Shown: in pieces, positions 29,699 through 46,833 of the stretch | Layout of the letters: every line of letters starts with the position of its first letter | Position numbering within the stretch: the stretch's first letter is position 1 | DNA from: Clostridium sp. | Lineage (GTDB): Bacteria > Bacillota > Clostridia > Clostridiales > Clostridiaceae | Reading direction: 5' to 3' | Assembly (NCBI RefSeq): GCF_022482905.1 | Contig: NZ_JAKVOI010000001.1 | Span: 2,543,958 to 2,607,957, forward strand | DNA length: 64,000 bases | Position numbers and translations under genes: made by a program | The notes under the pieces: model-generated | Told to the model about the DNA's origin: nothing | The model's input: the letters and a program-made list of their open reading frames with translations, nothing else | The model's database searches: none

Positions 29699-30583
29699 TT
29701 ATTTAGCAACTTCAACATTTGCCAATTTCTCGTAGAACTTTACAATAGCCGAGTGATCACTCTGTCCCTCACCGTCCAGGTGAAGATTTCTGAGTATCTC
29801 AAGCACCTGACTTGTAAGGAACAGCGGAGCACCCACTCCTGCTCCAGTTTCGACTGCATTGGTCAGATCCTTTATGTGAAGATCAATTTTGAATCCAGGT
29901 TTGAAATTTCTGTCAAGAACCATCGGTGCTTTTGCATCAAGTACAGTACTTCCTGCAAGTCCTCCACGGATGGCATTATAAATAAGCTCCGGAGATACAC
30001 CAGCTTTTGTACCAAGTACAAATGCTTCGGACATGGCTGCTATATTAAGTGCAACTATAACCTGATTTGCAAGCTTTGTTACATTTCCAGCTCCAATATC
30101 GCCGCATAATACTACACTCGTACCCATTTTCAAAAGCAGATCCTTGAATTTATTGAAAGTTTCTTCTTTTCCCCCTACCATTATGGATAAAGTTCCATCA
30201 ATAGCTTTTGGTTCTCCACCACTTACCGGGGCATCCAGCATATCTACTCCCTGTTTTTCCAGTTTTTCAGCCACTTCTCTCGAAACGAGAGGTGCTATGG
30301 AACTCATGTCAATAAGTACAGAACCCTTTTTTATTCCTTCCGCAACACCGTTTTCTCCAAAAACAACCTGTTTAACCTGTGGAGAATTAGGAAGCATTGT
30401 TATCACAACATCACTTTTCGATGCAACATCCTTTGCTGAAGTGCCAGCTTCGGCTCCAGTTTTTACGACTTCATCAACTGATGCTTTGTTAATATCGAAC
30501 ACTACAAGGTCATAGCCTGCCTTGACTAAATTCTTCGACATTGGTTTTCCCATAATTCCAAGTCCTATAAATCCTATTTTCAT
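29699..30583 (-). CDS. garR: Tartronate semialdehyde reductase
   Basis: 294 residues. A beta-hydroxyacid dehydrogenase: N-terminal KIGFIGLGIMGKPMSKNL (NAD binding), DAPVSGGEPKAIDGTLSIMVGG (substrate binding), and GAGNVTKLANQVIVALNIAA with the catalytic lysine. This matches GarR/GlxR, which reduces tartronate semialdehyde to D-glycerate in glucarate and galactarate breakdown. Its own promoter (30622-30703) shares the regulon element. RBS CAGGAGGA precedes the ATG. Confidence 0.93.
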   Translation of the reverse strand: MKIGFIGLGIMGKPMSKNLVKAGYDLVVFDINKASVDEVVKTGAEAGTSAKDVASKSDVVITMLPNSPQVKQVVFGENGVAEGIKKGSVLIDMSSIAPLVSREVAEKLEKQGVDMLDAPVSGGEPKAIDGTLSIMVGGKEETFNKFKDLLLKMGTSVVLCGDIGAGNVTKLANQVIVALNIAAMSEAFVLGTKAGVSPELIYNAIRGGLAGSTVLDAKAPMVLDRNFKPGFKIDLHIKDLTNAVETGAGVGAPLFLTSQVLEILRNLHLDGEGQSDHSAIVKFYEKLANVEVAK

Positions 30584-30621
30584 ATGTTGATCCTCCTGTA
30601 CTTTAAATTTATACTAACATT

Positions 30622-30703
30622 ATCTTACTTTTGTATATACCAATCAATATTCATTTGCACAAATATCAACAGCCATCACCAATGTGTTTTATATATATGC
30701 ATA
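30622..30703 (-). promoter_or_regulatory. Aldarate-regulon promoter 1 (garR)
   Basis: Minus strand: box TTTGTGCAAATGAATATTG (30663-30645), whose last six bases (ATATTG) stand in the -35 position. After 17 bases comes -10 TAAGAT (30627-30622). A second box, palindrome TATGCATA (30696-30703), has its TGCA core 42 bp upstream of the core in the first box. The same layout occurs before five other units of this cluster. Confidence 0.82.
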
Positions 30704-30718
30704 AATAAAATTCAAAGA

Positions 30719-32242
30719 TCATGTAATTGGAGCAGGATTGAATATTCCAAGAGCATTGTAAAGTCCATGAATATCTGCATAGGTTTTCTTTGTTCCACTG
30801 GCAACCCCCAGAATCAAATTAAATAATTCCCACCCTACTTCTTCGATGCTCTTTTCCCCGCTTGCTATTCTTCCTGCATCAAGATCTATCAAGTCATTCC
30901 ATTTTTCCTTGAGAGTTGTATTGCTTGAGACCTTTATAACAGGTGCCACTCTTAAATTGTAGGTTGTACCTCTTCCTGTAGTAAATACTTGTAATGTCAT
31001 GCCGGAAGAAAGCTGCATAGTACCACATACGAAATCACTGGCAGGCGTTGCAGCATAGGTCATACCTTTCTTTTTGATTCTCTCTCCAGGAGAAAGTACG
31101 TCAACTATGCTGGTACTTCCCGATTTGGCTACAGACCCCAAAGCTTTATCAACCACATTTGAAAGTCCTCCCTTTTTATTGCCTGGTGAGGGATTTGCAT
31201 CTCTATCCACATGGGATTCGTCGAGATATCTATCATACCATTTCATTTCTCTTACAAGTTTTGCAAGGACTTCATCATTGGCTGTTCTCGGTGCCAGAAG
31301 ATGAACCGCATCTCTAATTTCAGTTACTTCTGAAAACATTGCCTTCGCACCAGCCCTTACAAGTAAATCTGCTGCAAATCCAACAGCAGGATTTGCAGTG
31401 ATCCCGGAAAATGCATCACTTCCACCACATTGAAGTCCAACTACCAAATCGGATACAGGACATTGAACACGCGTTCTGGAATTCAATTTTTCAAGTTTCC
31501 TGTCCGCCTTTCTCATTATTTCGTTAATCATCTCCTCAAATCCATGACATTCCTGTAAAATTACAAGATCATCATTTTCTATTCTGGGGAAAAGTATCGT
31601 CGGTACCAATTTTTCACACCCAAGGCATACTGTCAGCAGCTGACCTCCAAAATTTGGATTCCTCGATAAATTTCTTATGGTCCTTATGGGAATTTCTGCA
31701 TTATCCCCATGTATGGCAACTCCACATCCATAAAGATGATTAAGTGCAACAACATCATCTACATTCCCGTATTTTGGAAGCAGCTCCCTCCTTATCTTGT
31801 CTATGGCAACATTGACTACACCTTCCGAACATTGAACAGTAGTTGTAATACCCAGTATATTTTTAGTTCCGACGCTTCCGTCTTCATTTCTATATCCCAT
31901 GAAGGTATAACCTTCAAGTGGCTCGTAGTCATCAATCATATGTCCACTTTTCAGCTCATCAAGGGAATGCGCTTTTGGAAGCCGCACTTTATCTTCACGA
32001 AGCCAGCTGCCTTTTTCCAGATCACATTCTGCATATCCAATTATCTCGCCATATCTTATGATAGGCTCATCCTTTGATATATCCTTCAATACTACCTTGT
32101 TTGCCTGTGGTACATCAGAAAGAAGTTTAAGTCCATCATCAAATACAACTCCTTTTTTCAATCCATTCTTATTAGCTATTATAGCTACATTATCACTGGG
32201 ATTGACTTTGATGTACAAAGGAAATATCTGTTCATCTTTCAT
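30719..32242 (-). CDS. garD: Galactarate dehydratase
   Basis: 507 residues, full length for the UxaA/GarD family. An N-terminal SAF-like domain ([19 protein letters not shown]) leads into the catalytic part: [54 protein letters not shown] and [21 protein letters not shown], with the conserved cysteines and histidines of the metal site. It dehydrates galactarate to 5-keto-4-deoxy-glucarate. It is the last gene of the unit that starts with gudD (36462), 3 bases after the second gudD gene. Confidence 0.93.
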
Positions 32243-32245
32243 TAT

Positions 32246-33598
32246 CTATTCACTCCTTACCATGCACGGTTTTTTACTATCAAACTTCCATCCAGGGATC
32301 AAATACTGCATGGCCAGTGCATCATTACGATCTCCTGAATCCAGCCTTTCATAGAGTTTGTTTGCCTCTGATACTTTATCCATATCTATATCTATTCCCA
32401 ATCCTGGCCTCTTTGGAACTTCTATATATCCGTTTTTAATACTCAGCGGATTTTTTACAATATGCTGGCCATCCTGCCAAATCCAATGTGTGTCCATTGC
32501 TGTAATATGTCCGGGTGCTGCTGCCGCAACATGTATATACATGGCAAGAGAAATATCAAAATGGTTGTTTGAATGTGAGCCCCAAGTCATCCCCCAGTCA
32601 TTACACAATTGAGCAACACGTACTGAACCATTCATGGTCCAGAAATGGGGATCAGCAAGAGGTATATCTACAGCTCCCAGAATAATTGAATGATAATATT
32701 GAGGCCAATTTGTTGCAATCATGTTTGTAGCAACCTTGAAGCCTGTTGCCTTTTTAAATTCATTTATTATCTCTCTTCCTGAATATCCTCTCTCTGCTCC
32801 ACATGGATCTTCAACATAAGATAATGTATTTCTCATATCTTTGCATAATTTTATCGCCTGATTCAGCGACCATGCACCATTGGGATCTATATTGAATACA
32901 CATTCCGGAAAGGATTTCTTCAAAGCCATCATGGTTTCCATTTCTGCTTCACCTTTAAAAACTCCGCCTTTAAGCTTGAAATTCCCAAAGCCATATTTCT
33001 CCTTAAGTACCTGAGCTTCTTCTACAACAGCCTCCGTTGTCAAGGCAGATCTTCGCCTTGTTCTAAACCATATATCATTATTGTCAGATTCATCTATATA
33101 TGGCAGATCCGTTTTATCCTTATCACCAATATAAAACAAATACCCTAATACAAGTACTTTATCTCTCTGAATTCCATCGCCAAGAAGTGAAGCCACCGGC
33201 AAATTCATATATTTCCCCAATAGATCCAAAAGTGCCGATTCTACAGCCGTTTCCGCTTTTACAACAAATTTCATATTCTTTAAATTTAATCCCTGAAGTC
33301 CCCTTCCATCATTTCCGGCAGCCTGATACCCTCCATTACGTATCAGATTTAATATATTTCTATAATCGCCTATCTGTCTGCCTATCACAAGTGGTATATA
33401 ACTTTCCAATGTTTTCGTAATATCATTACCGCCATGTACCTCACCCAGTCCTATATTCCCGGAGTTATCTTTGAGTATTACTATATTACGTGTAAAAATC
33501 GGACCATGGGCTCCACTCAATGTCAAAAGCATACTGTCATACCCAGCTACAGGAATGACTTTCATATCTACTATTTCAGGTGTACCTCTCATCAACAT
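32246..33598 (-). CDS. gudD: Glucarate dehydratase, copy 1
   Basis: 450 residues from the ATG at 33598; AAAGGAGG lies just upstream, and a longer reading would hide it. This is an enolase-superfamily enzyme with the GlucD set intact: [10 protein letters not shown] (Lys-x-Lys), [36 protein letters not shown] and [13 protein letters not shown] (catalytic His). It dehydrates D-glucarate or L-idarate to 5-keto-4-deoxy-glucarate. It is about 60% similar by eye to the second copy at 35113. Lies between the DASS permease and garD in one operon. Confidence 0.92.
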
Positions 33599-33609
33599 AC
33601 AACCTCCTT

Positions 33610-35049
33610 TTAATACATTCCTATCAATTTCCACCACGCCATTCCAAAAACAAGAAGAATTACGAGATGTACTATTGACACAATAAAACCAACAAACCAC
33701 CAGGTTCTCTGTTCAACATATCCTTCAGAAAAATATACACCTCCCTGTGCTATCCCATAATGGGTCAGTCCTGAACTTAAAGCTGATATATCCACCAGTA
33801 AAAATACAGATAATACCGGAGGTGCACCAATACTCAGCAATATTGTTAGAAATGCTGTAAATAATGCTGTAAAATGCACCATATTACTTGCAAACAAATA
33901 GTGCAGATAATACATTGAAATACAAATTATGACTAATGCAGAAAGCCATGATATACCCTGTATATAATTAGTAACTATACTGCTTATCCACTTAATTATT
34001 CCCAGCTTGTTGAGCTGTCCAGCCATCATCATAAAAGCACCAAGCCATATAACAAGATTCCAGATCCCTCTTTTCCCGGTAAATTCTTCCCAGGATACAA
34101 TTCCCGATGCTATTAATATTATCAGTCCCAAAACACTTACTGTTGTTGCGTCAATATTTAATTTAGATCCAAATATCCATAGGGCCACTACAATAATAAA
34201 TACACCTACCACAAATTTTTCGGATTTTTTCATGGAGCCCAGCTGCCTTAAATTGTCGCTCATCAATTTTTCGACATTGTCCAGCTTTTTTATTTCAGGC
34301 GGGCATATAAAATAAATAATTACTGGTACAACTATAAAATTTATCAATACCGGTACTATGCCCACTAAAAGCCACAAACCAAAAGTTATATCTGTTTTCA
34401 CTCCCAAGTCCCTGGCCATGGCAATAGCTAATAAATTTACTGCAGAAGATGTAACAAACAATGATGATGAAATAAGATTGCTGTGTATGGCTGTGAGCAT
34501 TAAAAAAGTGCCTGCCTTCTTTTCCGTGCCATCCCCAGCTCTTGAGCCATAAGCTTCTGAAAGTGCCTTCGCAATTGGCAGTATTATTCCTGTAGATCTT
34601 GAAGTCGCACTTGGAATCAACATGCTAAGTATCCCTTCACATAGTACCAATGAATATCCGACGCCTATTGTCCTCCTTCCTATCTTCCTAATTATATTGT
34701 AAGCCAGACGCTTTCCAAGTCCTGTCTTTGTTATACCTATGGAAAGACAGTCCGCACAGACTATCAGCCAGATGAGTCCTTCACTATATGAAGAAAAAGC
34801 TTCTTTAGTTGTTATAATATGTGTACAGGTTAATATGAATATTCCAATAAAAGAAGCCAAGCCCAATGACACTGCTCCAAGAGCACATGCTACTATAATA
34901 GAAACAAATATCGCCAGGAGATACCAACCATTTATGGGCACTGAATCCGGTCTTGGCACAAGACAAATCAATATCCCAACCAGAATTGAAACCATCAGGG
35001 GCTTAAACCTGATATTGGGCTTGAATGATGATTCTACTATATTCGGCAT
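33610..35049 (-). CDS. DASS-family anion/Na+ symporter, candidate aldarate permease
   Basis: 479 residues with 11-13 hydrophobic segments. Divalent-anion:Na+ symporter features are [19 protein letters not shown] (the SNT-like first motif), [20 protein letters not shown], and a second-half counterpart with [22 protein letters not shown] proteins carry dicarboxylates such as malate, succinate or tartrate. Here it is sandwiched between two glucarate dehydratase genes, so it is the prime candidate for glucarate/galactarate import, a job done by an MFS GudP in E. coli. RBS AAGGAGAGA. Confidence 0.85.
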
Positions 35050-35112
35050 GATAATTCTCTCCTTATAACAATTTAGCTAACACAACATGTGCTAGCTAAT
35101 TAGAATTACATT

Positions 35113-36462
35113 TTATCTTACTAAGCATGGTTTTTTGTTGTTGAATTTCCAGCCTGGAATTAAATACTGCATTGCAACAGAATCATCACGGGCACCTAAT
35201 GACATTTTATTATACAAGTTATTTGCTTTCTCAACCTGTTCCATATCTATCTCCACTCCAAGACCTGGTTTATCGGGAATATCTATCATGCCTCCAATAA
35301 TTTTGAAAGGATTTTGGGTCAGATATTGACCATCCTGCCATATCCAATGGGTATCTATAGCAGTAACTTTTCCCGGAGCTGCAGCTGCTGTCTGTGCATA
35401 CATTGCAAGTGAAATATCAAAGTGATTGTTCGAATGTGAACCCCAGGTAAGCCCCCAGTCCCTGCATGTCTGTGCCACTCTTACCGATCCTTCCATAGTC
35501 CAGAAATGAGGATCAGCAAGAGGTATATCTACAGAATGCATTTGCAGAGAATGTACCATTTGGCGCCAGTCAGTCGCTATCATATTTGTGGCTGTAGGAA
35601 GTCCAACTTCATTCCTGAATTCAGACATTACTTCACGCCCTGAAAATCCTTCTTCAGCACCACAGGGATCTTCTGCATACGCAAGAACTCCATTTAAATT
35701 TTTACACAAGTCTATGGCTTCACATAATGACCACGCTCCATTAGGATCAAGTGTAATACGTGCATCAGGAAATTTTTTATGAAGTGCAGTAACAGCCTCT
35801 ATTTCCTTCTCTCCTTCAAGAACTCCGCCCTTAAGTTTGAAATCTTTAAACCCATATCTCTGTTCTGCTGCTTCTGCAAGCCTTACAACCGCTTCGGGAG
35901 TCATTGCTTCTTCTATACGTAAACGTGACCAGTCATCATTTGAGTCAGGTTCATTTACATAAGGTAGGCTTGTCTTTTTACGATCACCTACAAAGAAAAG
36001 ATATCCTAAAACCTTTACTGATTTCCTCTGCTGTCCTTCACCAAGCAATTCACATACAGGCACCCCCAAAAATTTTCCCACGAGATCAAGAAGTGCAGCT
36101 TCTATTGCCGTCATCGCATGAATTGCAATTCTCATATCAAAAGTCTGAACTCCTCTTCCAAGGCAGTCCCTGCATGCAAAGGTATCTTTGATTTTATTAA
36201 CTATTGATTTATATTTTCCAATACTTTGTCCAACAACTAATGGCGTTGAATCCTGTATTGTTTCACGTATTTTTTCACCGCCGGGCACCTCCCCAATTCC
36301 CACATTTCCAGAACTGTCTTTCAAAATTAAAATATTACGTGTAAAAAAAGGGCCGTGTGCTCCGCTGAGATTAAGCAGCATGCTGTCGTGACCCGCTACA
36401 GGAATAACTTTCAAGTCAGTAACAACCGGTGTATTTTTTATTGAATTTTGTTCATTTCCCAT
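35113..36462 (-). CDS. gudD: Glucarate dehydratase, copy 2
   Basis: 449 residues. Same active-site set as copy 1: [59 protein letters not shown]. Unlike the E. coli GudD/GudX pair, neither copy has lost an obvious catalytic residue. It is the first gene of the unit gudD2-permease-gudD1-garD and lies behind promoter 2. RBS GGAGGGATA. The copies may prefer different diacids (glucarate, idarate). Confidence 0.92.
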
Positions 36463-36515
36463 ATCCTATCCCTCCAAAAATAATAACTGTAACAACGTTT
36501 GTTTGTAATTTAATT

Positions 36516-36598
36516 ATCATACTTTTGATTATCTCAATCAATATTCAATTGCACAAACATTAATCCTTTACATCAATTCATTTTTATATATATGCCTA
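36516..36598 (-). promoter_or_regulatory. Aldarate-regulon promoter 2 (gudD copy 2 operon)
   Basis: Minus strand: box TTTGTGCAATTGAATATTG (36557-36539), 17-base spacer, -10 TATGAT (36521-36516). The distal box TATGCCTA (36591-36598) has its core 43 bp upstream. Transcription would start about 45 bases before the gudD copy 2 start codon. Confidence 0.83.
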
Positions 36599-36608
36599 AA
36601 GATTATTT

Positions 36609-37898
36609 TTAAAGCAGATTCCCATCTTCATCAAATTTCACATACTCCGGTTCACTTTCTATTTCAATATCAGTATATTTTTTTATTTCGTCATAATAGG
36701 CCTCTGAAAGCATTATATGCTCAATATGCAAACTGTTTGGTATCCTGACTATTCTTGCATTTTTTTTATCAATATTTACACATGTTTTTATACAAAGCTG
36801 TATGGCCTCCCTGTCATCTGCCACTACGCAGGGTATTCTTGCCGATTCAAGTACAGTGCTTGTAATGCAATTTGGATATATTTTTTCAAAGTCAAGTTTA
36901 TCAAACAATTTTTTCGTTATAACACTCGAAAGTCCAATTCCAAGCCCATTTCCATGAGATTTTTCGCTCAGGTCAAGCATGGCGGTCCTCTGTACCTTCA
37001 CCCCACCAGATGCATATTTCGTGGAGAATGTACCTGTAATATTAGGATCCACACCTGTACCACTATAATTCTTGCCTATTTCATCGACAATAAGAACATC
37101 ACATTCCCCGACTATTATTTTAGGCATGTTGGAAAATGCTTCCTTAAGCAGTTCCGGTTCTTTATCTGCAATTTCATCTGAGTCAATCCCCACTATTTTA
37201 CACGTTTCATCAAAGGCGTTTTCTATACACGGTACTGCAAAAAGAATAGGTGCATTTTGAATTATAACTTTTCCAATTTGCTCTATATTTTTTCCTATAT
37301 TCTGCATCCCCTGTGAATGTACCCGTTCTGCTCCCACCTGTTTTCCAAGCCCTACCGCCATCATCTTCATGATACCACTTTCATATTTTCCCCTGAATGC
37401 ATTATGAGGCTTAATACGACAGGAAACTATGATACCGTCAGACTCAGCCGCATTTTTGTCTATAACTACTTCCCTTCCACCTTCCATAGTTCCAGCTGTT
37501 ATGACTTCCATGGATGATTTAATAGGACATCCCAAAAACTCCTCCGTAATTCCATAACTTTCAAGCAGTTCCACCTGCCCCTCAGCAGTCGCCCCCCCGT
37601 GACTTCCCATTGCAGGTACTACAAATGGCTTAGCTCCCTTAGACGAAACAAAATCAGCTATAGCTTTGGTTATTATTGCAACATTTGCAACACCCCTGCT
37701 TCCAGCTGTAATGGCAATATTCATCCCTGGCTTGATCTTCCGTGAAAATTTCTCTCTGGAAAGTTCTTTTTCTACTACATAGGGTATATCTTCAGGTTTA
37801 ATTAAAGGCCGCGGGAAAATCTGCCTAACTTTGAACATTCTCGGGATATAAACTCCATCCAGTAATTTGGACACTGCTCCTCCCTTTTTTATTTCCAT
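36609..37898 (-). CDS. LarA-family nickel racemase-like protein
   Basis: 429 residues of the lactate-racemase LarA superfamily (DUF2088 N-terminal domain). Expected active-site residues appear: GSHGG (His100), KPHNAF (His165), YESGIMKMMAVGLGK (lysines 178 and 186) and RVHSQG (His194), close in spacing to the LarA histidines and the pincer-cofactor lysine. LarA enzymes racemise 2-hydroxy acids with a nickel-pincer nucleotide, whose synthesis genes (larB, larC, larE) are not in this window. It is the last gene of the glycerate kinase operon. Substrate could be glycerate, malate or tartrate; this is inference from context. Confidence 0.8.
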   Translation of the reverse strand: MEIKKGGAVSKLLDGVYIPRMFKVRQIFPRPLIKPEDIPYVVEKELSREKFSRKIKPGMNIAITAGSRGVANVAIITKAIADFVSSKGAKPFVVPAMGSHGGATAEGQVELLESYGITEEFLGCPIKSSMEVITAGTMEGGREVVIDKNAAESDGIIVSCRIKPHNAFRGKYESGIMKMMAVGLGKQVGAERVHSQGMQNIGKNIEQIGKVIIQNAPILFAVPCIENAFDETCKIVGIDSDEIADKEPELLKEAFSNMPKIIVGECDVLIVDEIGKNYSGTGVDPNITGTFSTKYASGGVKVQRTAMLDLSEKSHGNGLGIGLSSVITKKLFDKLDFEKIYPNCITSTVLESARIPCVVADDREAIQLCIKTCVNIDKKNARIVRIPNSLHIEHIMLSEAYYDEIKKYTDIEIESEPEYVKFDEDGNLL

Positions 37899-37899
37899 A

Positions 37900-38265
37900 T
37901 CAGTTCTCCCTTTCTACATTTTTTGTTGCAATTACATCACTGCCAAGATCAAGTACATTTTTTATAATTACCCGGTTCATTTTAACCGGTGCTTTTATTG
38001 TGACTTTTTTTATTTCATCCATTACCTTGAATATATCATTTTTTGGCACTGGATTTGTAAGTCTGACACTTACAAGAGGTAGAACTCCATTTTCAACAAG
38101 AACAGATGAAGCAATATTTCTACGAGGATCCAGAATCTCCTGATGCACATATTCTTCTCCTCTTTTGCAGGATGCTCCTTCTATTGAAACCAGTTCTTTT
38201 CCTTCTACATCAGCTTCTATCTCACATCCATTTGGACATATTATACACGTATATTCCCTGATCAT
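37900..38265 (-). CDS. DUF1667 iron-sulfur-like subunit
   Basis: 121 residues. Cysteines in the N-terminal half (TCIICPNGCEIEAD, then GASCKRGEEY) make a C-x2-C-x3-C plus C set suited to a metal or Fe-S cluster. The second half (RRNIASSVLV, LPLVSVRLTNPVPK) is the DUF1667 domain. These proteins usually accompany a GlpA-like and a second flavoprotein, as here, and probably form an electron-transfer complex. It overlaps the preceding gene by four bases (ATGA). Confidence 0.85.
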   Translation of the reverse strand: MIREYTCIICPNGCEIEADVEGKELVSIEGASCKRGEEYVHQEILDPRRNIASSVLVENGVLPLVSVRLTNPVPKNDIFKVMDEIKKVTIKAPVKMNRVIIKNVLDLGSDVIATKNVEREN

Positions 38266-39500
38266 TTTGCCGCCACCTCTATATTATCCATAGATTTTAT
38301 ATCTTCCCTGTTTATTTTAAACTGGATCATTTTTGCCGGTACTGCTTTTTTCAATTTGACTGTTTTTATAACATTTCCTGACTGAGCAACCTCAATTCTG
38401 CAGTTCTTTATAGGCTTTCTTACTCTCATGGAAAGCTGAAAATCCTTCTTTCCGCTTATTTTCTGCGGTACTGTATGTCCTATATTGTCACCTGCCACAA
38501 TATCTATATTAGATCTGTCAAATCCTCCTGTATTTATATATTCTTCCACTGAATCTGCAAGCCCCTCTGCTTCAAGAGACACAAAGTCAACCAGATCATG
38601 GACATGAAGCACATTTCCTGCAGCAAATATCCCTTCAACACTTGTCTGATAGTTTTCATCTACAATGGCTCCCTTTGTCCTATTATCAAGAACAACATCT
38701 GCAGCAAGCGAAAGTTCATTCTCAGGTATCAATCCAACCGAAAGAATCAGTGTATCACAGGTATAATCCTTTTCAGTTCCTGGTATTGGTTTCATCTTTT
38801 CATCAACCTTGCATACTGTAATACCTTCAAGCTTCGAATTCCCTTTAATTGCAGTAATTGTATGACTCAAATAAAGCGGAATATCATAGTCATTAAGACA
38901 TTGTTCAATATTTCTTGGAAGTCCGCTGGGGTACGGTTGTATTTCAAAGACTGCCTTTACTTTTGCACCTTCAAGCGTCATCCTTCTGGCCATTATCATC
39001 CCTATGTCACCTGAGCCAAGTATTATAATTTCCCTGCCTATCATCTTGTTGTACAAATTTACATAGGCCTGTGCAACACCTGCATTATATACTCCCGAGG
39101 GTCTTGTCCCAGGAATACCAATTGCCCCTCTTGTTCTCTCCCTGCATCCCATTGCAAGTACAACTGCTCTTGCTTCATATTTCAACAATCCATTTCTGGA
39201 TACAGCTGTAACAATCCTCTTGGAGGTAATATCTATAACCGTAGTGTTTGTAATATACTCAATTCCAAGTTCATCAACCTTGTCTATGAATTTCTGGGAA
39301 TATTCAGGACCTGACAAAGTTCTTTTGAATCTTGTAAGTCCAAATCCATCATGAATACACTGCCTTAGAACACCACCAAGTTGTTTTTCCCTTTCAAGTA
39401 TTATAATATCCGAAATACCTTTAGTTTTAAGTTCTACCGCAGCCGCAAGTCCTGCAGGTCCTCCCCCTATAATTACAACATCCTTTTTTATAACAGCCAT
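38262..39500 (-). CDS. FAD/NAD(P)-dependent oxidoreductase (GlpA-module partner)
   Basis: 412 residues from the ATG at 39500, with GGGAAGGTGAGA upstream; it shares one base with the previous stop (TAATG). It is a two-dinucleotide-binding flavoprotein: VVIIGGGPAGLAAAVEL for FAD near the start and REIIILGSGDIGMIMARRM for NAD(P) near residue 165, plus GIFAAGNVLHVHDLVD at the end of the FAD domain. A CxxC redox pair is not evident. In Firmicutes this type of protein sits between a GlpA-like dehydrogenase and DUF1667, exactly as here. It probably passes electrons from a hydroxyacid to NAD(P)+ or another carrier. Confidence 0.85.
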   Translation of the reverse strand: MAVIKKDVVIIGGGPAGLAAAVELKTKGISDIIILEREKQLGGVLRQCIHDGFGLTRFKRTLSGPEYSQKFIDKVDELGIEYITNTTVIDITSKRIVTAVSRNGLLKYEARAVVLAMGCRERTRGAIGIPGTRPSGVYNAGVAQAYVNLYNKMIGREIIILGSGDIGMIMARRMTLEGAKVKAVFEIQPYPSGLPRNIEQCLNDYDIPLYLSHTITAIKGNSKLEGITVCKVDEKMKPIPGTEKDYTCDTLILSVGLIPENELSLAADVVLDNRTKGAIVDENYQTSVEGIFAAGNVLHVHDLVDFVSLEAEGLADSVEEYINTGGFDRSNIDIVAGDNIGHTVPQKISGKKDFQLSMRVRKPIKNCRIEVAQSGNVIKTVKLKKAVPAKMIQFKINREDIKSMDNIEVAAK

Positions 39501-40954
39501 TAATATCTCACCTTCCCAACAAACATATAAGACCCGCATCGTGAATAAACTAATTCTTTTTCCTGTTTGTGCTTTTCCTTTTCAATTATCTCCGTTATTC
39601 TTGTCTCACAGTAACCTCCCTGACATCTTCCCATCATTGCCCGTGTTCTGTTTTTGATACCAGTCAAGGAATCAACTCCAAGACAATTGTGAACAGCCTC
39701 TACTATTTCAGCCTTTGTAATATTCTCACACCTACAGACGACTTCCCCATAATCAGGATTTTTCTCTATAAGTTTTTCCTTTATATCATCACTTTGATCA
39801 GAGAATTTGACAATTCCCTTTCTCCTCGGGTTGAAATTTTCATCTTGAACAAGTTTTTCCTTCTCGCCAAATAGAGCTACCGTCCTTCTCGCAAGGGGAA
39901 GTGCACTTGTAAGTCCTGGTGATTCTATTCCCACCAGATTGATAACATTTGGCACTTCATCCCTCATTTCAAGTACAAAATCCTGCACTTCGCCTGTCTC
40001 CTTGTCTACAAGTTTAGGTCTTATACCTGAAAAATTTCTAATGAAATGTTCCTTGTTTAAATTTTTGAACATCTTTTTCCCTTCGACAATCAACTTGTTC
40101 ATCACTGCAGGAGTTACTCCATAATTCTCAAAGTCTTCAACGATTTCAGAACTCGGTCCTACCAATATATTGCCGTCTACAGTTGGTGTCGCATGTGTTC
40201 CAAATCCACCTCTTTCATTGGGAGCAGGATATACCGGCATATTCATATATTTTCCTGCCTTCTTGTCAAGTACAAAATATTCACCCTTGAATCCTCTTAT
40301 TGTATAACCCGGTATTCCAAGCATAGTCGATACAACTGCCGAATTCAATCCGGCCGAGTTTACGATCCATCTTGCATGATACAATCCTCTGACTGTCTTT
40401 ACTTCAAATATATCGTTTTTACGATTGATGCCCAGTACCTCGTTGTTAAAATAATATTCAACTCCATTCTGCTGGGCATTTTCTGCAAGTGCTATGGTAT
40501 ATTCAAAAGGATTTAAAATTCCACTTGCAGGAGAATACATTGCAAATTCCCCTCCTGCACTGGGATCAAGTTCTTCTATGCTCTTTCTGTTTATTATTTT
40601 GAGTCCTTTGACTCCATTCAACTCCCCGAGTTTCTTGTACTTCAACAGACTTTTCATGTCATCTTCAGTGAAACCTATAACAAGCTTACCCGTTCTTTTA
40701 AATGGAACATCAAGTTCTTCCGCCACTCTATCAAATTCCATATTTCCCTCTACTGCACATTGCGCCTTCAAAGAACCATGCTTGTAGGTAAACCCGGCAT
40801 GAAGCATGCCTGTATTTCTACCGCTTGTTTCACAGCATACATCAGGTTCTTTTTCAAGAACAGCTATATCGAGCTTGTATCTCGAAAATTCCCTGGCGAT
40901 GGCATTCCCTACTACACCTCCACCTATGATTAAAATATCATATATTTTATCCAA
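39500..40954 (-). CDS. GlpA-like FAD dehydrogenase with C-terminal [2Fe-2S] BFD-like domain
   Basis: 484 residues from a TTG at 40954, preferred because GCGGAGGTG sits 8 bases upstream. The N-terminal DILIIGGGVVGNAIAREFSR is a DAO-type FAD site, followed by TSGRNTGMLHAGFTY. The last 90 residues hold VVCRCENITKAEIVEA and GRCQGGYC, the four-cysteine BFD-like cluster found in anaerobic glycerol-3-phosphate dehydrogenase GlpA. Here the operon begins with glycerate kinase and has no glycerol genes, so another 2-hydroxy acid is the likely substrate. Confidence 0.86.
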   Translation of the reverse strand: MDKIYDILIIGGGVVGNAIAREFSRYKLDIAVLEKEPDVCCETSGRNTGMLHAGFTYKHGSLKAQCAVEGNMEFDRVAEELDVPFKRTGKLVIGFTEDDMKSLLKYKKLGELNGVKGLKIINRKSIEELDPSAGGEFAMYSPASGILNPFEYTIALAENAQQNGVEYYFNNEVLGINRKNDIFEVKTVRGLYHARWIVNSAGLNSAVVSTMLGIPGYTIRGFKGEYFVLDKKAGKYMNMPVYPAPNERGGFGTHATPTVDGNILVGPSSEIVEDFENYGVTPAVMNKLIVEGKKMFKNLNKEHFIRNFSGIRPKLVDKETGEVQDFVLEMRDEVPNVINLVGIESPGLTSALPLARRTVALFGEKEKLVQDENFNPRRKGIVKFSDQSDDIKEKLIEKNPDYGEVVCRCENITKAEIVEAVHNCLGVDSLTGIKNRTRAMMGRCQGGYCETRITEIIEKEKHKQEKELVYSRCGSYMFVGKVRY

Positions 40955-40977
40955 TTTATAAACACCTCCGCAGTTCT

Positions 40978-42132
40978 TCACATTTTACAATTATTTAGCT
41001 TTATGAGTCTGATAATATTTTCCATAGTTTTTTCTACATTTTTACTTCCATTTTCAAGGGCATTATCTAAATTTGTAACACCTTGAACAATACTGAAGAT
41101 TGAATCTATACCTTTTTCATAGAGTGCTTCTATATCTTTCCCTATACTTCCCGCCAGTACTATCACAGGTTTGTCATACTTCTTGGCCATCATGGCCACA
41201 CCCATTGGGGTTTTCCCATATTGTGTCTGAAAATCAATACTTCCTTCCCCTGTGAAAACCAAATCCGCAGTCTTTATATTCTCCTCAAGGTTGGAATATT
41301 TTATTACTATGTCAATACCAGCTTCAAGTTTTCCATTCAAAAATACCATGAGTCCGGCTCCAAGCCCTCCTGCTGCACCGGCACCAGGTATGTTCAATAC
41401 ATCCATGCCAAGTTGATTTTTGATTATAGAAGCATAATGTCTCAAATTATCATCCAGTATTTTTATCATTTCACTATCTGCACCTTTTTGCGGACCGAAT
41501 ACATTCGATGCCCCATTATCCCCACAAAGAGGATTGGTAACATCACAAGCCACTTCTACTTCTACCTCTTTAATGCGTTCATCAAATTCAGACAGATCTA
41601 TGGAAGACAGTTTTCTCAATTCCCCTCCTCCAAATCCAATCTCTTTTCCAAATTTATCTTTCAATTTTCCACCTAATGCTTGAACAACTCCCGCACCTCC
41701 ATCATTGGTTGCACTTCCACCAATTCCTATAAGCAGCTTTTTAATCCCGCGATCCAGGCATGCCTTTATGAGCTGTCCTGTCCCATAAGTTGTTGTTACG
41801 AGCGGATTCCTGTCTTCCTGATGAATTAGAGCAATTCCACTTGCGCTGGCCATTTCTATAATTCCTGTTTTACCATCTCCAAGTATTCCGTATTCAGCTT
41901 CCACTTCATTTCCAAGCGGGCCCATTACTTTTAATTTATATACACTGCCACCTGTAGCATCAACCAGAGACTGCATTGTACCTTCTCCTCCATCTGCCAT
42001 AGGTATCTTTATGCAATTAATGTCCTCATCTACCCTTCTAATTCCCTTTTCCATGGCATCACATACTTCTTTTGCCGTCATACTTTCTTTAAATGAATCA
42101 GGTGCCAACAGAATATTGGACTCTTTTTTCAT
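40978..42132 (-). CDS. garK: Glycerate kinase (GarK/GlxK type)
   Basis: 384 residues from ATG 42132, placed after TTGGAGGGATTAAAC. Family motifs: LLAPDSFKESMTAKEVCDAM, PMADGGEGTMQSLVDATGG, GIGGSATNDGGAG and GAGAAGGLGAGLMVFL. It phosphorylates D-glycerate (to the 2-phosphate in the well-studied enzymes), the last step of aldarate degradation. First gene of a five-gene operon behind promoter 3, ahead of the flavoprotein, DUF1667 and LarA genes. Confidence 0.94.
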   Translation of the reverse strand: MKKESNILLAPDSFKESMTAKEVCDAMEKGIRRVDEDINCIKIPMADGGEGTMQSLVDATGGSVYKLKVMGPLGNEVEAEYGILGDGKTGIIEMASASGIALIHQEDRNPLVTTTYGTGQLIKACLDRGIKKLLIGIGGSATNDGGAGVVQALGGKLKDKFGKEIGFGGGELRKLSSIDLSEFDERIKEVEVEVACDVTNPLCGDNGASNVFGPQKGADSEMIKILDDNLRHYASIIKNQLGMDVLNIPGAGAAGGLGAGLMVFLNGKLEAGIDIVIKYSNLEENIKTADLVFTGEGSIDFQTQYGKTPMGVAMMAKKYDKPVIVLAGSIGKDIEALYEKGIDSIFSIVQGVTNLDNALENGSKNVEKTMENIIRLIKLNNCKM

Positions 42133-42197
42133 GTTTAATCCCTCCAAAGTTCAATCCATTGTATATTTCCCATGTTCTACATTTTGTTAGTTCTAAG

Positions 42198-42281
42198 ATA
42201 ATACTTTTTAATGAATGAAACAATATTCAGTTGCACAAACATATATCCCACCTTTAATTTGTTTTTCATTTATTTGCATAA
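42198..42281 (-). promoter_or_regulatory. Aldarate-regulon promoter 3 (glycerate kinase operon)
   Basis: Minus strand: box TTTGTGCAACTGAATATTG (42239-42221), 17-base spacer, -10 TATTAT (42203-42198). The distal box TTATGCAA (42281-42274) has its TGCA core 43 bp upstream of the proximal core. Confidence 0.83.
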
Positions 42282-42292
42282 CTAACTGCTAT

Positions 42293-42320
42293 AAAAACAT
42301 CTGTTGAAACAGATGTTTTT
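42293..42320 (-). terminator. Terminator of gntP
   Basis: AAAAACATCTG (42293-42303) pairs with CAGATGTTTTT (42310-42320), with a TTGAAA loop and a T-run on the minus strand, 11 bases past the gntP stop. Confidence 0.88.
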
Positions 42321-42330
42321 ACAATTAAAA

Positions 42331-43656
42331 TCAGTGAACAAATATATTTAAAATAAGGACGCCGACCAGTCCGATTACAGAAAGTAAACATGTATAGCTT
42401 GTCCTTGTCTTAATTGCATCAGCTACCGACAGCCCAAAGTATTCTTTATACATCCAGAATCCCGGATCATTTACATGAGATGCAAATATACTTCCTGTAG
42501 TGGTGGCAAGTACCATCAAGCTTGGATTAACTCCCGATACAGTTACCAAAGGCACTATCAGCCCCGCTGCCGCAGTTACCGCTACAGTAGCTGAACCAAG
42601 GGCAGTTCTCAAAACGGCTGCAATAAACCATGCCAATATAATTGGTGAAAGGTTCAATCCCTTTGTCATGGAAACTATTGTATCTCCTACCCCCGATGAA
42701 ACTAATACCTGCTTGAACGCACCACCTGCACCAATTATGAGAATAATCATGGCAATAGCTTTTACTGACTCACTCATGCTCTTTGCTATTTCATCCAATT
42801 TCCTGTTACATCCAAATCCGAAAGTAAATATGGCAATAATTGCCGTAATCATCAGAGCTATAGGTGCATCTCCAAAGAATTTGATATATTTTAATATTGA
42901 AGCATCCTTTGGAAACAGCAGTCCGCTGAATTCTGCAATAGCTATTAGAACTACCGGTACAAGCGCTGTAAATACACTTTTACCAAAGCTTGGCATTTCC
43001 TCATCGGTAAACAATTTGCTTGTGGTCAATCCTTCCGGTATGTTTGTTTTTGCATCCCTTATGAATTTTGTTTTTGAAAACAAAATTCCTACAATAATAG
43101 CTCCTGGAATAGCAATAATGAGTCCCAGAAGTAGCGTTCTTCCTACACTGGTTCCATAAGCCGAAGTTACAAGTGTTGGGCCAGGATGAGGCGGCAGAAA
43201 ACTGTGAGTTACAGAGAGCGCTACAACTGCCGGATAACCAATATAAATCAAAGGCAGCTTTGTTTCCTTGACTACACTATAGATAATTGGTATCAATAAA
43301 ATAAATGCTGCTTCAAAGAACATTGTTATTCCAACAATAAGTGAAGTTACAAGCATAGCCCATTGAACTTTCTTCATCCCAAACTTTTTAATCAAAGTAG
43401 TTGCTATACGCTGTCCTGCTCCACAATCAGACATCAACTTTCCAAGCATTGCCCCGAATGCAAGTATGAGTATCAAGCTGTTCAGCTGACTTCCGATACC
43501 CTTATACATCGCCTCGGTAACCTTTTCCAACGGCATACCTTCAAGAACACCAACAACCAGGGAAACTAATATCAATGAAATAAATCCATTAAGTTTACAA
43601 GGTATCATGAGTATTAAAAGCAATATTACTCCAATACCAACTATAACAAGCGACAT
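42331..43656 (-). CDS. GntP-family gluconate/sugar-acid permease
   Basis: 441 residues with 12-13 hydrophobic helices. GntP-family landmarks are GAMLGKLMSDCGAGQRIA, HSFLPPHPGPTLV and FIAAVLRTALGSATVAVTAA. These permeases import gluconate, glycerate-like or other aldonic acids with H+. Here it has its own promoter with the regulon element, so it is probably an uptake route for glycerate or a related acid that feeds the same pathway. Confidence 0.9.
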   Translation of the reverse strand: MSLVIVGIGVILLLILMIPCKLNGFISLILVSLVVGVLEGMPLEKVTEAMYKGIGSQLNSLILILAFGAMLGKLMSDCGAGQRIATTLIKKFGMKKVQWAMLVTSLIVGITMFFEAAFILLIPIIYSVVKETKLPLIYIGYPAVVALSVTHSFLPPHPGPTLVTSAYGTSVGRTLLLGLIIAIPGAIIVGILFSKTKFIRDAKTNIPEGLTTSKLFTDEEMPSFGKSVFTALVPVVLIAIAEFSGLLFPKDASILKYIKFFGDAPIALMITAIIAIFTFGFGCNRKLDEIAKSMSESVKAIAMIILIIGAGGAFKQVLVSSGVGDTIVSMTKGLNLSPIILAWFIAAVLRTALGSATVAVTAAAGLIVPLVTVSGVNPSLMVLATTTGSIFASHVNDPGFWMYKEYFGLSVADAIKTRTSYTCLLSVIGLVGVLILNIFVH

Positions 43657-43829
43657 GTTAAATTCCTCCCTTAAATATACTATTTATCAAAGTATTCAAA
43701 ATATTAATTATTTAATAAATATTATGACATAACTTTGTAGAGATTAAGAACGTTTACTGAACATTCATTGATACCTACAAACTATGTAGAAACTCCAGTA
43801 TTTAGTTTTGAATACTTTATGATTTTATT

Positions 43830-43911
43830 ATCATGTTTTTTGACAACCGTTACAATATTCAGGTGCACAAATTTTAATCGTTATCATGAGCTTTTTTCAT
43901 CTATATGCATA
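43830..43911 (-). promoter_or_regulatory. Aldarate-regulon promoter 4 (gntP)
   Basis: Minus strand: box TTTGTGCACCTGAATATTG (43871-43853), 17-base spacer, -10 CATGAT (43835-43830). The distal palindrome TATGCATA (43904-43911) has its core 42 bp upstream. It would give an unusually long leader (about 170 bases) to gntP. Confidence 0.8.
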
Positions 43912-43923
43912 AATATTTTTTAT

Positions 43924-43971
43924 AAAAAAAGAATCCAGTATAGCGGATAAACCCGCTTAAATACTGAACTC
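43924..43971 (-). terminator. Terminator of the PPC-aldo/keto reductase operon
   Basis: A long two-part hairpin: GAATCCAGTAT (43931-43941) with ATACTGAACTC (43961-43971), and an inner AGCGG/CCGCT stem. On the minus strand it ends in seven T. Confidence 0.82.
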
Positions 43972-43983
43972 TTTTATCCTAAC

Positions 43984-44883
43984 CTATAAAATATCAAGAG
44001 GCATCTTTCTATCAGGTTTGGGAAACAAACTTTCAAGTTTATCAAGATCATCTTTTGAAAATTGAATAGCCGCAGCCTTTGCATTCTCTATCACATGCTC
44101 TTCACGAGATGCTTTTGGAATAGCAATCACATTATCCGTCCTTATCGTCCAGGCCAGAATTATCTGAAGAGGCTTTGCATTGTATTTTGCTGCCAGTTCA
44201 TTTACTGTCCTGTCTTTCATCAACTGTCTTTTCAACCTTCCTCCCTTGGCTATCGGACAATATGCCATAATGGGCATGTTATTTTTCCTATGCCAGGGCA
44301 GCAAATCAAATTCGATTCCACGTGATCCAAGATGATATAATACCTGATTGACCATACAATTGGAACCATTCCTGCAATTTACAATCTGCTCCATATCCGA
44401 AGTATCCATATTCGATACTCCCCATCTTAAAATCCTGCCCTGCTTTTTCAGTTTCTCCATACCATCTACAGTTTCCTGAAAAGGTACGTTTCCTCTCCAG
44501 TGCAAAAGATACAAGTCCAGATAATCCGTGTTCAGTCTCTTGAGACTGTTCTCACAGGCAGCAACTATACTTCCAAAACCGGCATTATGCGGGTACACCT
44601 TGGATACCAGAAATACTTTATCTCTGATTCCCCGTATTGCCTTTCCGACAAGAATTTCAGATCCGCCATCTCCATACATCTCGGCAGTATCAATGAGTGT
44701 CATTCCGAGTTCTACACCAAGTCTCAGAGCTTTTATCTCCCTATCTTCACTTGACGGATTTTCTCCCATATACCAGGTTCCCTGTCCTAATGCATGGACA
44801 TAAGTTCCATCAGGCAGTCTTACCAATCTTCCTTCATTTGCACTTCTTGTCGATTCAATCTCAACTTCACTTATTGAACCCAT
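43984..44883 (-). CDS. Aldo/keto reductase
   Basis: 299 residues from ATG 44883 (GGAAAGGGA upstream). AKR signatures: LGQGTWYMGE, GMTLIDTAEMYGDGGSE with catalytic Asp/Tyr, DKVFLVSKVYP (Lys), and LHWRGNVPF (His). C-terminal VIAIPKASREEHV binds the phosphate of NADP(H). It follows the PPC-domain gene by 21 bases, in a unit with a regulon-type promoter, so it probably reduces an aldehyde or keto acid linked to aldarate metabolism (e.g. a uronate). Confidence 0.9.
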   Translation of the reverse strand: MGSISEVEIESTRSANEGRLVRLPDGTYVHALGQGTWYMGENPSSEDREIKALRLGVELGMTLIDTAEMYGDGGSEILVGKAIRGIRDKVFLVSKVYPHNAGFGSIVAACENSLKRLNTDYLDLYLLHWRGNVPFQETVDGMEKLKKQGRILRWGVSNMDTSDMEQIVNCRNGSNCMVNQVLYHLGSRGIEFDLLPWHRKNNMPIMAYCPIAKGGRLKRQLMKDRTVNELAAKYNAKPLQIILAWTIRTDNVIAIPKASREEHVIENAKAAAIQFSKDDLDKLESLFPKPDRKMPLDIL

Positions 44884-44904
44884 AATTATCAATCCCTTTC
44901 CAAC

Positions 44905-45327
44905 CTATAAATCCATAAAATTCAATCCAAATTCCCTATCAGGCGATTTTTTTATCTTCTCTCCAAGATCCGTAATAAATATTTCACAAACCAGGGATAT
45001 TCTGCACTTGAATAGATGGCCTCCTATCAACCCATAATTTTTATTGCTTAAATTTATATGTGAATGAATTACAACATCATCATTTTCCAATCTTCCTATA
45101 TTCCCTACAAGGCTGGTTATTTCAAGATTTTCCACAATATCCCTGCTGTCATACACTTTTTTTACCGGATCAAAATATCCCAGCTTGACTTCACCCGCAG
45201 CACCAATTGCCGTAAAGTATCCTGCTTTTATATTCTGTTCCCTGCACAATTCTGACAGTTCCTCTATTACCTCCTCTCCTTTGTTCAATTTTACAATATA
45301 AGTAGAACCAGATTTTCTGAATTTCAT
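44905..45327 (-). CDS. PPC/PCC (DUF296) domain protein
   Basis: 140 residues forming one PPC domain: TYIVKLNKGEEVIEELSELC, AGYFTAIGAAGEVKLGYFD, then VVIHSHINLSNKNYGLIGGHLF with the conserved histidines, and a C-terminal VCEIFITDL strand. In plants such domains are part of AT-hook proteins, but stand-alone bacterial ones have no settled function; the histidine cluster suggests metal binding. It is the first gene of the aldo/keto reductase unit behind promoter 5. Confidence 0.87.
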   Translation of the reverse strand: MKFRKSGSTYIVKLNKGEEVIEELSELCREQNIKAGYFTAIGAAGEVKLGYFDPVKKVYDSRDIVENLEITSLVGNIGRLENDDVVIHSHINLSNKNYGLIGGHLFKCRISLVCEIFITDLGEKIKKSPDREFGLNFMDL

Positions 45328-45378
45328 ACTATCAGCTCCTGTAAATTTTTATTATATAACAAAATTTATATAATAATT

Positions 45379-45461
45379 ATTCTTCTTTTTTGAAGAGGAA
45401 ACAATATTAAATTAAACAAATATTAAATAATAATAGTACTTTATTTTGTCTAATTGCATAG
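45379..45461 (-). promoter_or_regulatory. Aldarate-regulon promoter 5 (PPC and aldo/keto reductase)
   Basis: Minus strand: a diverged box TTTGTTTAATTTAATATTG (45420-45402) lacking the GTGCA core, 17-base spacer, -10 AAGAAT (45384-45379), and a distal CTATGCAA (45461-45454) with its core 42 bp upstream. The geometry is conserved while the proximal box is degenerate, so activation may be weaker. Confidence 0.65.
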
Positions 45462-45466
45462 TGAAA

Positions 45467-46621
45467 TTAGCTTTCATTTGTTTTAAAATTAATAATAGAG
45501 CAATAAAGCCAGAATAAATCAATATATTTCTTTGGATTCATATTCGTAAGCTTGTATATTTTATTAAGACGGTAGTTTAGAGTATTTCTGTGTATAAACA
45601 ATCTCCCGGATACCTTGTTCAGCTCACCATTTTCCTCTATAAATACTTTAAGCGTTTCTCTCAATTCACCATTCCTATCGTTTACAGCAAGCATATTATA
45701 GGACTCTCTCAATTCATTAACCTTCCATTTGGCATTATCCTGCGAAAACAGCATCTCATATTTTAGAAAATCAAAAACATATACATTGTCGTCGGGGTGG
45801 TTTTTTTGTCCGAACATGAGCGTTTGATTTGCTATTTGATAGGATTTATGTATGTCAGATAACTTATTGTATATTTTTCCCACCGATATTTTGACGTTGT
45901 TGTCAGTTTGTGCTTGTATTTTTTCATAAATTGTTTTTATTCTGTCTATGCAGTTTATTGTCTTGTAATGAGCATTCGGACATTTGTATATGAGAACAAT
46001 AGTCTTTGAATCGATAACCGCCACAAGTGAATTCTTAAGTGTTCCCTCGAGAATTTTTACTATATTGGTCAGTAAATCCAGATCCTTCCTCTCGGAAATT
46101 TTTTTAAAATTCACTTTTACAATAAAAATTGTCATGGGATAATTATAATCCAATTTGAATTTTTTCGTATATTTTTCAAGCAGGCGAAATGATCCCTGAT
46201 CATTGTTTATAAGAGATACTATCATATCCTCTTTAATTCTGTTGCTCCATTCAAGTTCCCTCATGACATATGCCTGTTCTATCATCATCTCTGCAGTCAT
46301 TTTGATCAATTTGCCATAACCTATGACTTCATCTCTTTTACCTGTAATACCGATTACTCCTACGACATTATCCTGAAACTCAATAACTACATTAGTTCCC
46401 TGCTGCACTCCATTCAACTCTCTGCACTGCTTTTCATCAATACTGAATTCAGATTTTCTTTCAAGTGCAAGTACCGCACCCTCATGAACATTACCTACTC
46501 TGTTTTTATCACCGGACGCTATAATTATTCCCTTATCATTCATAATATTCACATTTTTATTGACGGCTTTCATAGTCCTCCCCACTATTCTTTCAGCAAG
46601 TTCTCTACTTAGAACCTCCAT
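45467..46621 (-). CDS. cdaR: CdaR-type sugar diacid transcriptional activator
   Basis: 384 residues from ATG 46621, which follows TTTAAGGAGGAACG; a start 42 bases upstream has no ribosome site. N-terminal sugar-diacid recognition domain (ELAERIVGRTMKAVNKNVNI, IGITGKRDEVIGYGKLIKMTAEM), a GGDEF-like middle (IFIVKVNFKKISERKDLDLL), and a C-terminal PucR-type helix-turn-helix (VSGRLFIHRNTLNYRLNKIYKLTN). E. coli CdaR activates the gar and gud genes with glucarate, galactarate or glycerate as inducer. This is the natural candidate to bind the six repeated promoter elements. It is transcribed away from the aldolase gene. Confidence 0.9.
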   Translation of the reverse strand: MEVLSRELAERIVGRTMKAVNKNVNIMNDKGIIIASGDKNRVGNVHEGAVLALERKSEFSIDEKQCRELNGVQQGTNVVIEFQDNVVGVIGITGKRDEVIGYGKLIKMTAEMMIEQAYVMRELEWSNRIKEDMIVSLINNDQGSFRLLEKYTKKFKLDYNYPMTIFIVKVNFKKISERKDLDLLTNIVKILEGTLKNSLVAVIDSKTIVLIYKCPNAHYKTINCIDRIKTIYEKIQAQTDNNVKISVGKIYNKLSDIHKSYQIANQTLMFGQKNHPDDNVYVFDFLKYEMLFSQDNAKWKVNELRESYNMLAVNDRNGELRETLKVFIEENGELNKVSGRLFIHRNTLNYRLNKIYKLTNMNPKKYIDLFWLYCSIINFKTNES

Positions 46622-46681
46622 CCAACGTTCCTCCTTAAACATATATAGATAATACACCTGCAATTTATTTTATCCACAGTG

Positions 46682-46762
46682 TGCATATATATAAAAACAT
46701 ATTATTGATAACGATTAATGTTTGTGCAATTGAACATTGATATATATTTACATAAATACAAT
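46682..46762 (+). promoter_or_regulatory. Aldarate-regulon promoter 6 (DapA-family aldolase)
   Basis: Plus strand: distal TGCATATA (46682-46689), then box TTTGTGCAATTGAACATTG (46721-46739) with the core 43 bp away, 17-base spacer and -10 TACAAT (46757-46762). The distal box lies about 60 bases upstream of the divergent cdaR start codon, so it may also affect cdaR. Confidence 0.83.
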
Positions 46763-46833
46763 AATAAAATTGTTGGATCATTTATTTTAATACTATCATA
46801 TCACAAATCATTTTAATTTTTAGGAGGAATAAT

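Follow-up and report, generated by a model that had tools for sequence, protein, structure and literature searches.

In Escherichia coli, the regulon of CdaR (SdaR) comprises garPLRK, garD, gudPD and cdaR. The SdaR motif was first reported by prediction in γ-Proteobacteria in 2011 and was conserved before the known E. coli targets (PMC3223726), and SdaR was also tied to glycerate genes (PMC2996990); the parts of these two descriptions covered here do not mention spacing, pairs of sites or Firmicutes. The CdaR binding site was stated as undetermined in a 2020 article on GabR of Corynebacterium glutamicum, which describes in the passages covered a PucR-type activator whose two inverted repeats lie immediately before the -35 and are both required for strong binding (PMC7652997). 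Here we analyzed a stretch of 64,000 nucleotides (the window) from Clostridium sp. (NZ_JAKVOI010000001.1, positions 2,543,958 to 2,607,957), which carries an aldarate cluster with a cdaR gene and six similar promoters. From their sequences, all of these sites are likely to be promoters that CdaR activates through a pair of operators. At the sequence level, the sites combine one operator, a constant position relative to the -35, a constrained spacing, a recurrent gene context, co-occurrence with CdaR and recurrence in enterobacteria.

The six sites were found where the initial annotation had placed them, and their core 19-mers displayed 0, 0, 0, 1, 3 and 1 mismatches to TTTGTGCAANTGAATATTG. Five of them are on the minus strand (E values are from the profile described below). 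The garR unit (30612..30703, E 5.1e-17) has its far box at 30690-30703 (TATGCATATATATA), its near box at 30648-30661 (TGTGCAAATGAATA), a -35 TTGATT (30642-30647), a -10 GATAAT (30619-30624) and a predicted start at about 30612. The gudD2 unit (36506..36598, E 5.0e-17) is composed of a far box at 36585-36598 (TAGGCATATATATA), a near box at 36542-36555 (TGTGCAATTGAATA), TTGATT (36536-36541) and GATAAT (36513-36518). In the glycerate kinase unit (42188..42280, E 1.7e-13), the boxes at 42267-42280 and 42224-42237 are followed by TTGTTT (42218-42223) and a weak -10 TATCTT (42195-42200); here the -10 of the initial annotation, TATTAT, 3 bp upstream of TATCTT, fits better. The gntP unit (43820..43911, E 1.6e-17) has boxes at 43898-43911 and 43856-43869, TTGTAA (43850-43855) and GATAAT (43827-43832). 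The unit of the PPC/PCC-domain gene (45369..45460, E 4.5e-11) has a far box at 45447-45460 (TATGCAATTAGACA), a degenerate near box at 45405-45418 (TGTTTAATTTAATA), an oddity that recurs in two congeners (G141 and G145), TTGTTT (45399-45404) and AATAAT (45376-45381). The DapA-family gene unit lies on the plus strand (46680..46772, E 1.6e-16), with its far box at 46680-46693 (TGTGCATATATATA), near box at 46723-46736 (TGTGCAATTGAACA), TTGATA (46737-46742) and AATAAT (46760-46765). The far-to-near distance was 42 bp for garR, gntP and PPC and 43 bp for gudD2, glycerate kinase and dapA. The TGCA described for the upstream box was present in five of the six far boxes, the gudD2 far box reading TAGGCA instead.

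The most plausible reading of the two boxes is a single 14-bp imperfect palindrome near TGTGCAWWTGCACA that occurs twice. The near-box consensus TGTGCAnnTGAAYA and the far-box consensus TRTGCAWATAnAYR are both close to it, and matches between half-sites ranged from 3 to 6 of 7 positions in near boxes and from 2 to 6 of 7 in far boxes. A direct-repeat reading was dropped because the two boxes are versions of one palindrome.

A TTGNNN hexamer abuts the 3' end of the near box and matches TTGACA at 3-5 of 6 positions in the window sites. The hexamer taken as -35 in the initial annotation, ATATTG (or ACATTG), matches at only 0 or 1 positions and was replaced; since TTGNNN is much closer to the consensus, the poor -35 that had been put forward as a sign of activator dependence no longer argues for an activator. 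The -10 region resembles TATGATAAT, in which TATGAT (the earlier choice) and GATAAT overlap, each 17 bp from its own -35, so the 17-bp plan holds in either register and the choice of -10 is close. By hand count, the GATAAT register matches TATAAT at 29 of 36 positions over the six window sites and the earlier register at 27 of 36. We also considered 57 matches to the near box with 1 mismatch, collected irrespective of promoter features, 18 of which lack the following TTG (many being far boxes or reverse-strand matches). Their mean match to TATAAT was 4.1 in the new register and 4.3 in the earlier one, while their mean match to TTGACA was 3.1 and 1.1, respectively. We prefer the new register, because its -35 is closer to the consensus and the enterobacterial -10s described below fall at its offset. 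The predicted starts would then center the near box at about -42.5, abutting the predicted -35 as for a class II activator, and the far box at about -84.5 or -85.5; the TATGAT register would shift all centers by 3 and put the near box at about -39.5. An AAAA run in the -35/-10 spacer, at positions 29-32 counted from the near-box start, recurs across the units. Its per-column conservation was 70-79% in the unfiltered set and 91-98% in the filtered set, where the run was required; the high ATAAT conservation of filtered units is likewise partly due to the filter, which required TTG, the A run and 4 of 6 -10 matches.

Within the window, the core 19-mer at up to 3 mismatches gave 6 matches against 0.16 expected, and none of 100 shuffles reached six. 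In the whole genome (3,567,184 bases, 3.57 Mb), the cluster held all five matches with 0 or 1 mismatch. There were 11 matches with 3 mismatches, namely the PPC site and 10 outside the cluster, and the reversed core had 3 matches with up to 3 mismatches. The core alone is therefore unspecific at 3 mismatches, while the whole unit is specific. This was seen with a profile built on 34 units selected in three genera, the window sites and their orthologues included in the training set, which was run on 13 genomes of the genus and scored the 150 first-look candidates of each (150 of 5785 in the own genome). The six window units had E values from 1.6e-17 to 4.5e-11, all in the cluster, and the next of the 150 scored was at 0.066. 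In the other five genomes of the genus with CdaR, the weakest clear unit was at 4.3e-8 and the next match at 0.0066. The best E value was at most 1.6e-17 in each of the 6 genomes with CdaR, and no match better than 0.018 was found in the 7 without. Together with the related clusters described below, this supports the proposal of one regulon of six promoters with a fixed two-box plan.

The cdaR gene (45467..46621, minus strand) encodes a protein with Diacid_rec, GGDEF_2 and HTH_30 domains (Pfam) and has the only Diacid_rec match of the whole genome, inside the aldarate cluster. By eye, an ATG near 46621 with AAGGAGG before it is a likelier start than the TTG at 46663 of the open reading frame (ORF) list (46615-46663). 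The product is 31% identical to E. coli CdaR, the HTH motif HRNTxxYRL is invariant across 6 aligned CdaRs, and comparison with solved structures gave a single weak match, Rv2242. A sample of 225 genomes of the order contained a CdaR orthologue (E ≤1e-60) in 14 and none in 211. A pattern of near box, A run and -10 with 2 mismatches allowed was found in 12 of the 14 CdaR genomes and in 2 of the 211 others, the latter with one 2-mismatch match each (Fisher 3e-16); the two CdaR genomes without such a match (G094 and G095) carry a site with 3 mismatches. The boxes are thus present in clostridial relatives, their absence having been named in the initial annotation as a possible refutation. When its spacer was lengthened by 1 bp, the pattern matched none of the 14 CdaR genomes and had one match each in five others, and the reversed pattern was found in none of the 225. 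In the genome G113, an additional, partial CdaR match directly precedes the full one (L032 16648-18899). The low G+C content of the window (37%), the 10 core matches outside the cluster and the 3 of the reversed core might suggest that the sites are chance AT-rich similarity; given the shuffles, the absence of the reversed pattern and the E value gap from 4.5e-11 to 0.066, this is excluded for practical purposes.

The six promoters are very probably regulated by CdaR, in line with the role assigned to this gene in the initial annotation, as the only Diacid_rec gene of the genome lies in the cluster and the near-box pattern tracks its orthologues. Since clusters tend to be inherited whole, co-occurrence alone cannot identify the binding protein, and CdaR might merely co-travel with the cluster while another regulator encoded elsewhere binds the boxes. 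We regard this as improbable, because the same operator occurs in E. coli at cdaR and at garP-garD, which are far apart on the chromosome, with a CdaR of 31% identity, and because two genomes of the genus g6 (G096 and G098) also have sites on contigs other than that of cdaR. Gene context also follows the window cluster: among 52 units from the window and its relatives, 47 have an ORF of at least 100 amino acids in reach, and in 34 of these the largest downstream ORF has its orthologue in the window cluster (glycerate kinase 9, garR 6, gudD 6, gntP 5, dapA 4, aldo-keto reductase 3, transporter 1).

Units for the analysis of spacing were selected on the near box, the TTG, the A run and the -10, independently of the far box. 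In the genera g1, g3 and g10, TRTGCA was located at exactly 42 bp (14 units) or 43 bp (27 units) in 41 of 44 units, and the other three have the one-letter variants TAGGCA, AATGCA and TATGCG there. For 35 of the 57 unfiltered near boxes, TRTGCA was at 42 or 43 bp; four further distances each occurred once. In the genus g6, TRTGCA was at 32 bp, one helical turn less, in 7 of 8 units, which argues for phasing rather than a fixed length. The six promoters might also be alike through recent copying without constraint, as they neighbor each other in one cluster and two of them, gntP and dapA, share a cre-like stretch. However, the columns between the boxes and in the spacer have diverged while the boxes and TTG were kept, the layout is common to several genera and to enterobacteria, and the only length change seen is 10 bp, so that we consider recent copying very improbable.

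The initial annotation knew of no such layout in clostridia, and the layout is not confined to them, as it also occurs at enterobacterial garP. In E. coli, garP has TGTGCATATGCTCA, 42 bp, TTAGCATTTGCACA, ATGATT, 17 bp and TATACT. For E. coli and 20 further garP regions found among 80 genomes, anchored on the near box and the -10, the mean operator score peaked exactly at 42 with 11.4 of 14; over distances 15-71 the mean was 4.2 (sd 1.7), and another maximum was seen at 64. The score at 42 was at least 10 in 19 of the 21 regions, the two misses being a misplaced anchor (L185) and a region that fits 43 (L189). In many of the 21 regions, a third operator-like box such as TGTGCATTAGCGCC was seen 22 bp beyond the far box (L174-L193), perhaps serving garD. 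Of 80 enterobacterial cdaR promoters, 77 have an operator that scores 10/14 or more and a -10 behind it at the same offset, and 8 of 20 printed rows read TGTGCATTTGCACA. A strict 56-base two-box pattern matched 2 of 20 enterobacterial genomes and was too strict. Among 11 distant Firmicute CdaR loci (29-35% identity), three have a 14/14 operator beside cdaR, and these three operators adjoin a gene for a GntP-family permease.

Several observations weigh against the two-operator reading. When the best pair was searched freely over distances 15-59, 42 was picked in just 10 of the 21 garP regions, while 9 favored 22 and 2 favored other distances. All 10 regions that favored 42 carry a TATACT or TATAAT where the -10 is expected, although the search was blind to it. 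Enterobacterial cdaR promoters have one operator, with a CRP-like site upstream of it. The gudP boxes of E. coli are weak, and its garD has no -10 in this register. Of the 11 distant Firmicute loci, two reach 12, two reach 11 and four less; the five printed loci were read for a promoter in the same register and none was seen, and the pairs near helical spacing are weak (32 bp in L083, 23/28; 43 bp in L088, 22/28). The near-box palindromes are imperfect, both -10 registers score about equally in the clostridial data, and the sites are non-independent, since congeners and promoter copies of the same cluster share descent. In g6, a clear far box is missing from the glycerate kinase unit (L055), where the best candidate scores 8/14. 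Finally, in 13 of the 47 units with an ORF in reach, the largest downstream ORF has no orthologue among the window genes. These ORFs comprise four cyclopropane-fatty-acid synthases, one LrgA, one Fer4_20/Pyr_redox_2 protein, two ORFs without Pfam match, three MFS transporters (two of the three scanned) and two iron-alcohol-dehydrogenase-like proteins (one of the two scanned).

The single operator that suffices at enterobacterial cdaR promoters and the g6 glycerate kinase unit would also agree with CdaR binding only the near box, the far box being an UP-element for the polymerase or a bend; the far box is rich in A and T, and the A runs behind it include two columns that are always A. Yet TRTGCA is held at one exact distance, and the garP box at 42 averages 11.4/14 and outscores the near box in 14 of 21 rows. 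UP-elements are not known to carry a TGCA core. Binding to the near box only is thus unlikely.

With two operators, CdaR on the near one, directly before the -35, could contact sigma and RNA polymerase in the manner of a class II activator, and the far operator, 42-43 bp upstream on the same helix face and about four turns up, would be a helper site. A sugar diacid or glycerate would activate CdaR, which would then most likely occupy both operators, and contact between the two bound dimers might help the near site to fill and to recruit polymerase. CdaR binding, its inducer, cooperation across four turns and activation are what we infer from the sequence. A requirement for both repeats as described for GabR can be counted in support of paired CdaR operators (PMC7652997, passages covered). 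In those passages, GabR resembles CdaR in a related HTH family, activation (a predicted role for CdaR) and two inverted-repeat sites, whereas it differs in its 21-bp repeats, both within a 55-bp fragment, its role in GABA use, its octameric state and the lack of a GGDEF-like domain.

The genes behind the six units were assigned by their Pfam domains. On the minus strand, garR (29699..30583; NAD_binding_2 and NAD_binding_11) may encode a tartronate semialdehyde reductase-like protein. Judged by spacing, gudD2, a sodium:sulfate-symporter-family transporter gene, gudD1 and garD (30719..36462) would form an operon behind the gudD2 promoter. A second putative operon (36609..42147) behind the glycerate kinase promoter contains glycerate kinase, a DAO/BFD oxidoreductase, an FAD oxidoreductase, DUF1667 and a Lar_N/DUF362 protein, and its downstream genes resemble a putative module for 2-hydroxy-acid oxidation or racemization. 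The gntP permease gene (42331..43656) and the PPC/PCC-domain gene with an aldo-keto reductase gene (43984..45327) are also on the minus strand. The DapA-family gene (46834..47730, plus strand) possibly encodes a GudL-type 5-KDG aldolase; GudL is a DapA-like protein in the part covered of PMC11775122.

Between the boxes, 18 of the 52 units carry TGNNAACGNT at a constant -17 relative to the near box; shuffles gave at most 2. In the window, the stretch is present at two of the six sites, gntP (43872-43886) and dapA (46706-46720). The element, TGATAACGATTAA or a close variant, resembles the CcpA cre, whose consensus is WTGNAANCGNWNNCW, with one or two consensus positions missed. Catabolite repression through this stretch is a guess from its sequence.

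In g6, the regulon seems to have shifted in content. Four of the eight units precede cyclopropane-fatty-acid synthase genes (L039 3094-4269, L040 14864-16039, L041 16912-18087 and L044 13951-15126); the others precede LrgA, a 143-amino-acid ORF without Pfam match and glycerate kinase (one each), and one (L043) has no ORF in reach. Among these other units are those at L054 861-1205 and L055 1618-2760, the latter being the glycerate kinase unit.

As in the known CdaR/SdaR regulon, a regulator with Diacid_rec and a PucR-type HTH occurs with a common operator before aldarate and glycerate genes. The window resembles the E. coli regulon in regulator family, substrate class, operator, the place of the operator relative to -35 and -10, and the second operator of garP at 42 bp. 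It differs in that all six promoters have the pair, whereas enterobacterial cdaR has one operator and a third box frequently lies another 22 bp upstream at enterobacterial garP. The operator itself is of the predicted kind, because the SdaR motif had already been predicted in γ-Proteobacteria; both are computed operators of orthologous regulators before glycerate or aldarate genes, as far as the parts covered describe the earlier motif (PMC3223726, PMC2996990). A phased operator pair or its spacing was not described in the literature covered, mostly titles and abstract openings with few passages. More broadly, CdaR may act as a phased pair in which two dimers connect over whole turns of the helix, in a layout that pre-dated the split of Firmicutes and Proteobacteria or was transferred, with g6 having removed one turn (42 to 32) as its regulon gained cyclopropane-fatty-acid synthase and LrgAB-type genes; we give this proposal an even chance of being right.

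A concrete CdaR operator, its promoter position and a rigid two-operator spacing, all predicted from sequence, are now available. The natural one-turn variant bears on whether the two bound proteins need to lie on one face of the helix. CdaR regulons thereby become readable in unannotated clostridia, including one genus with sites before a membrane-lipid gene.

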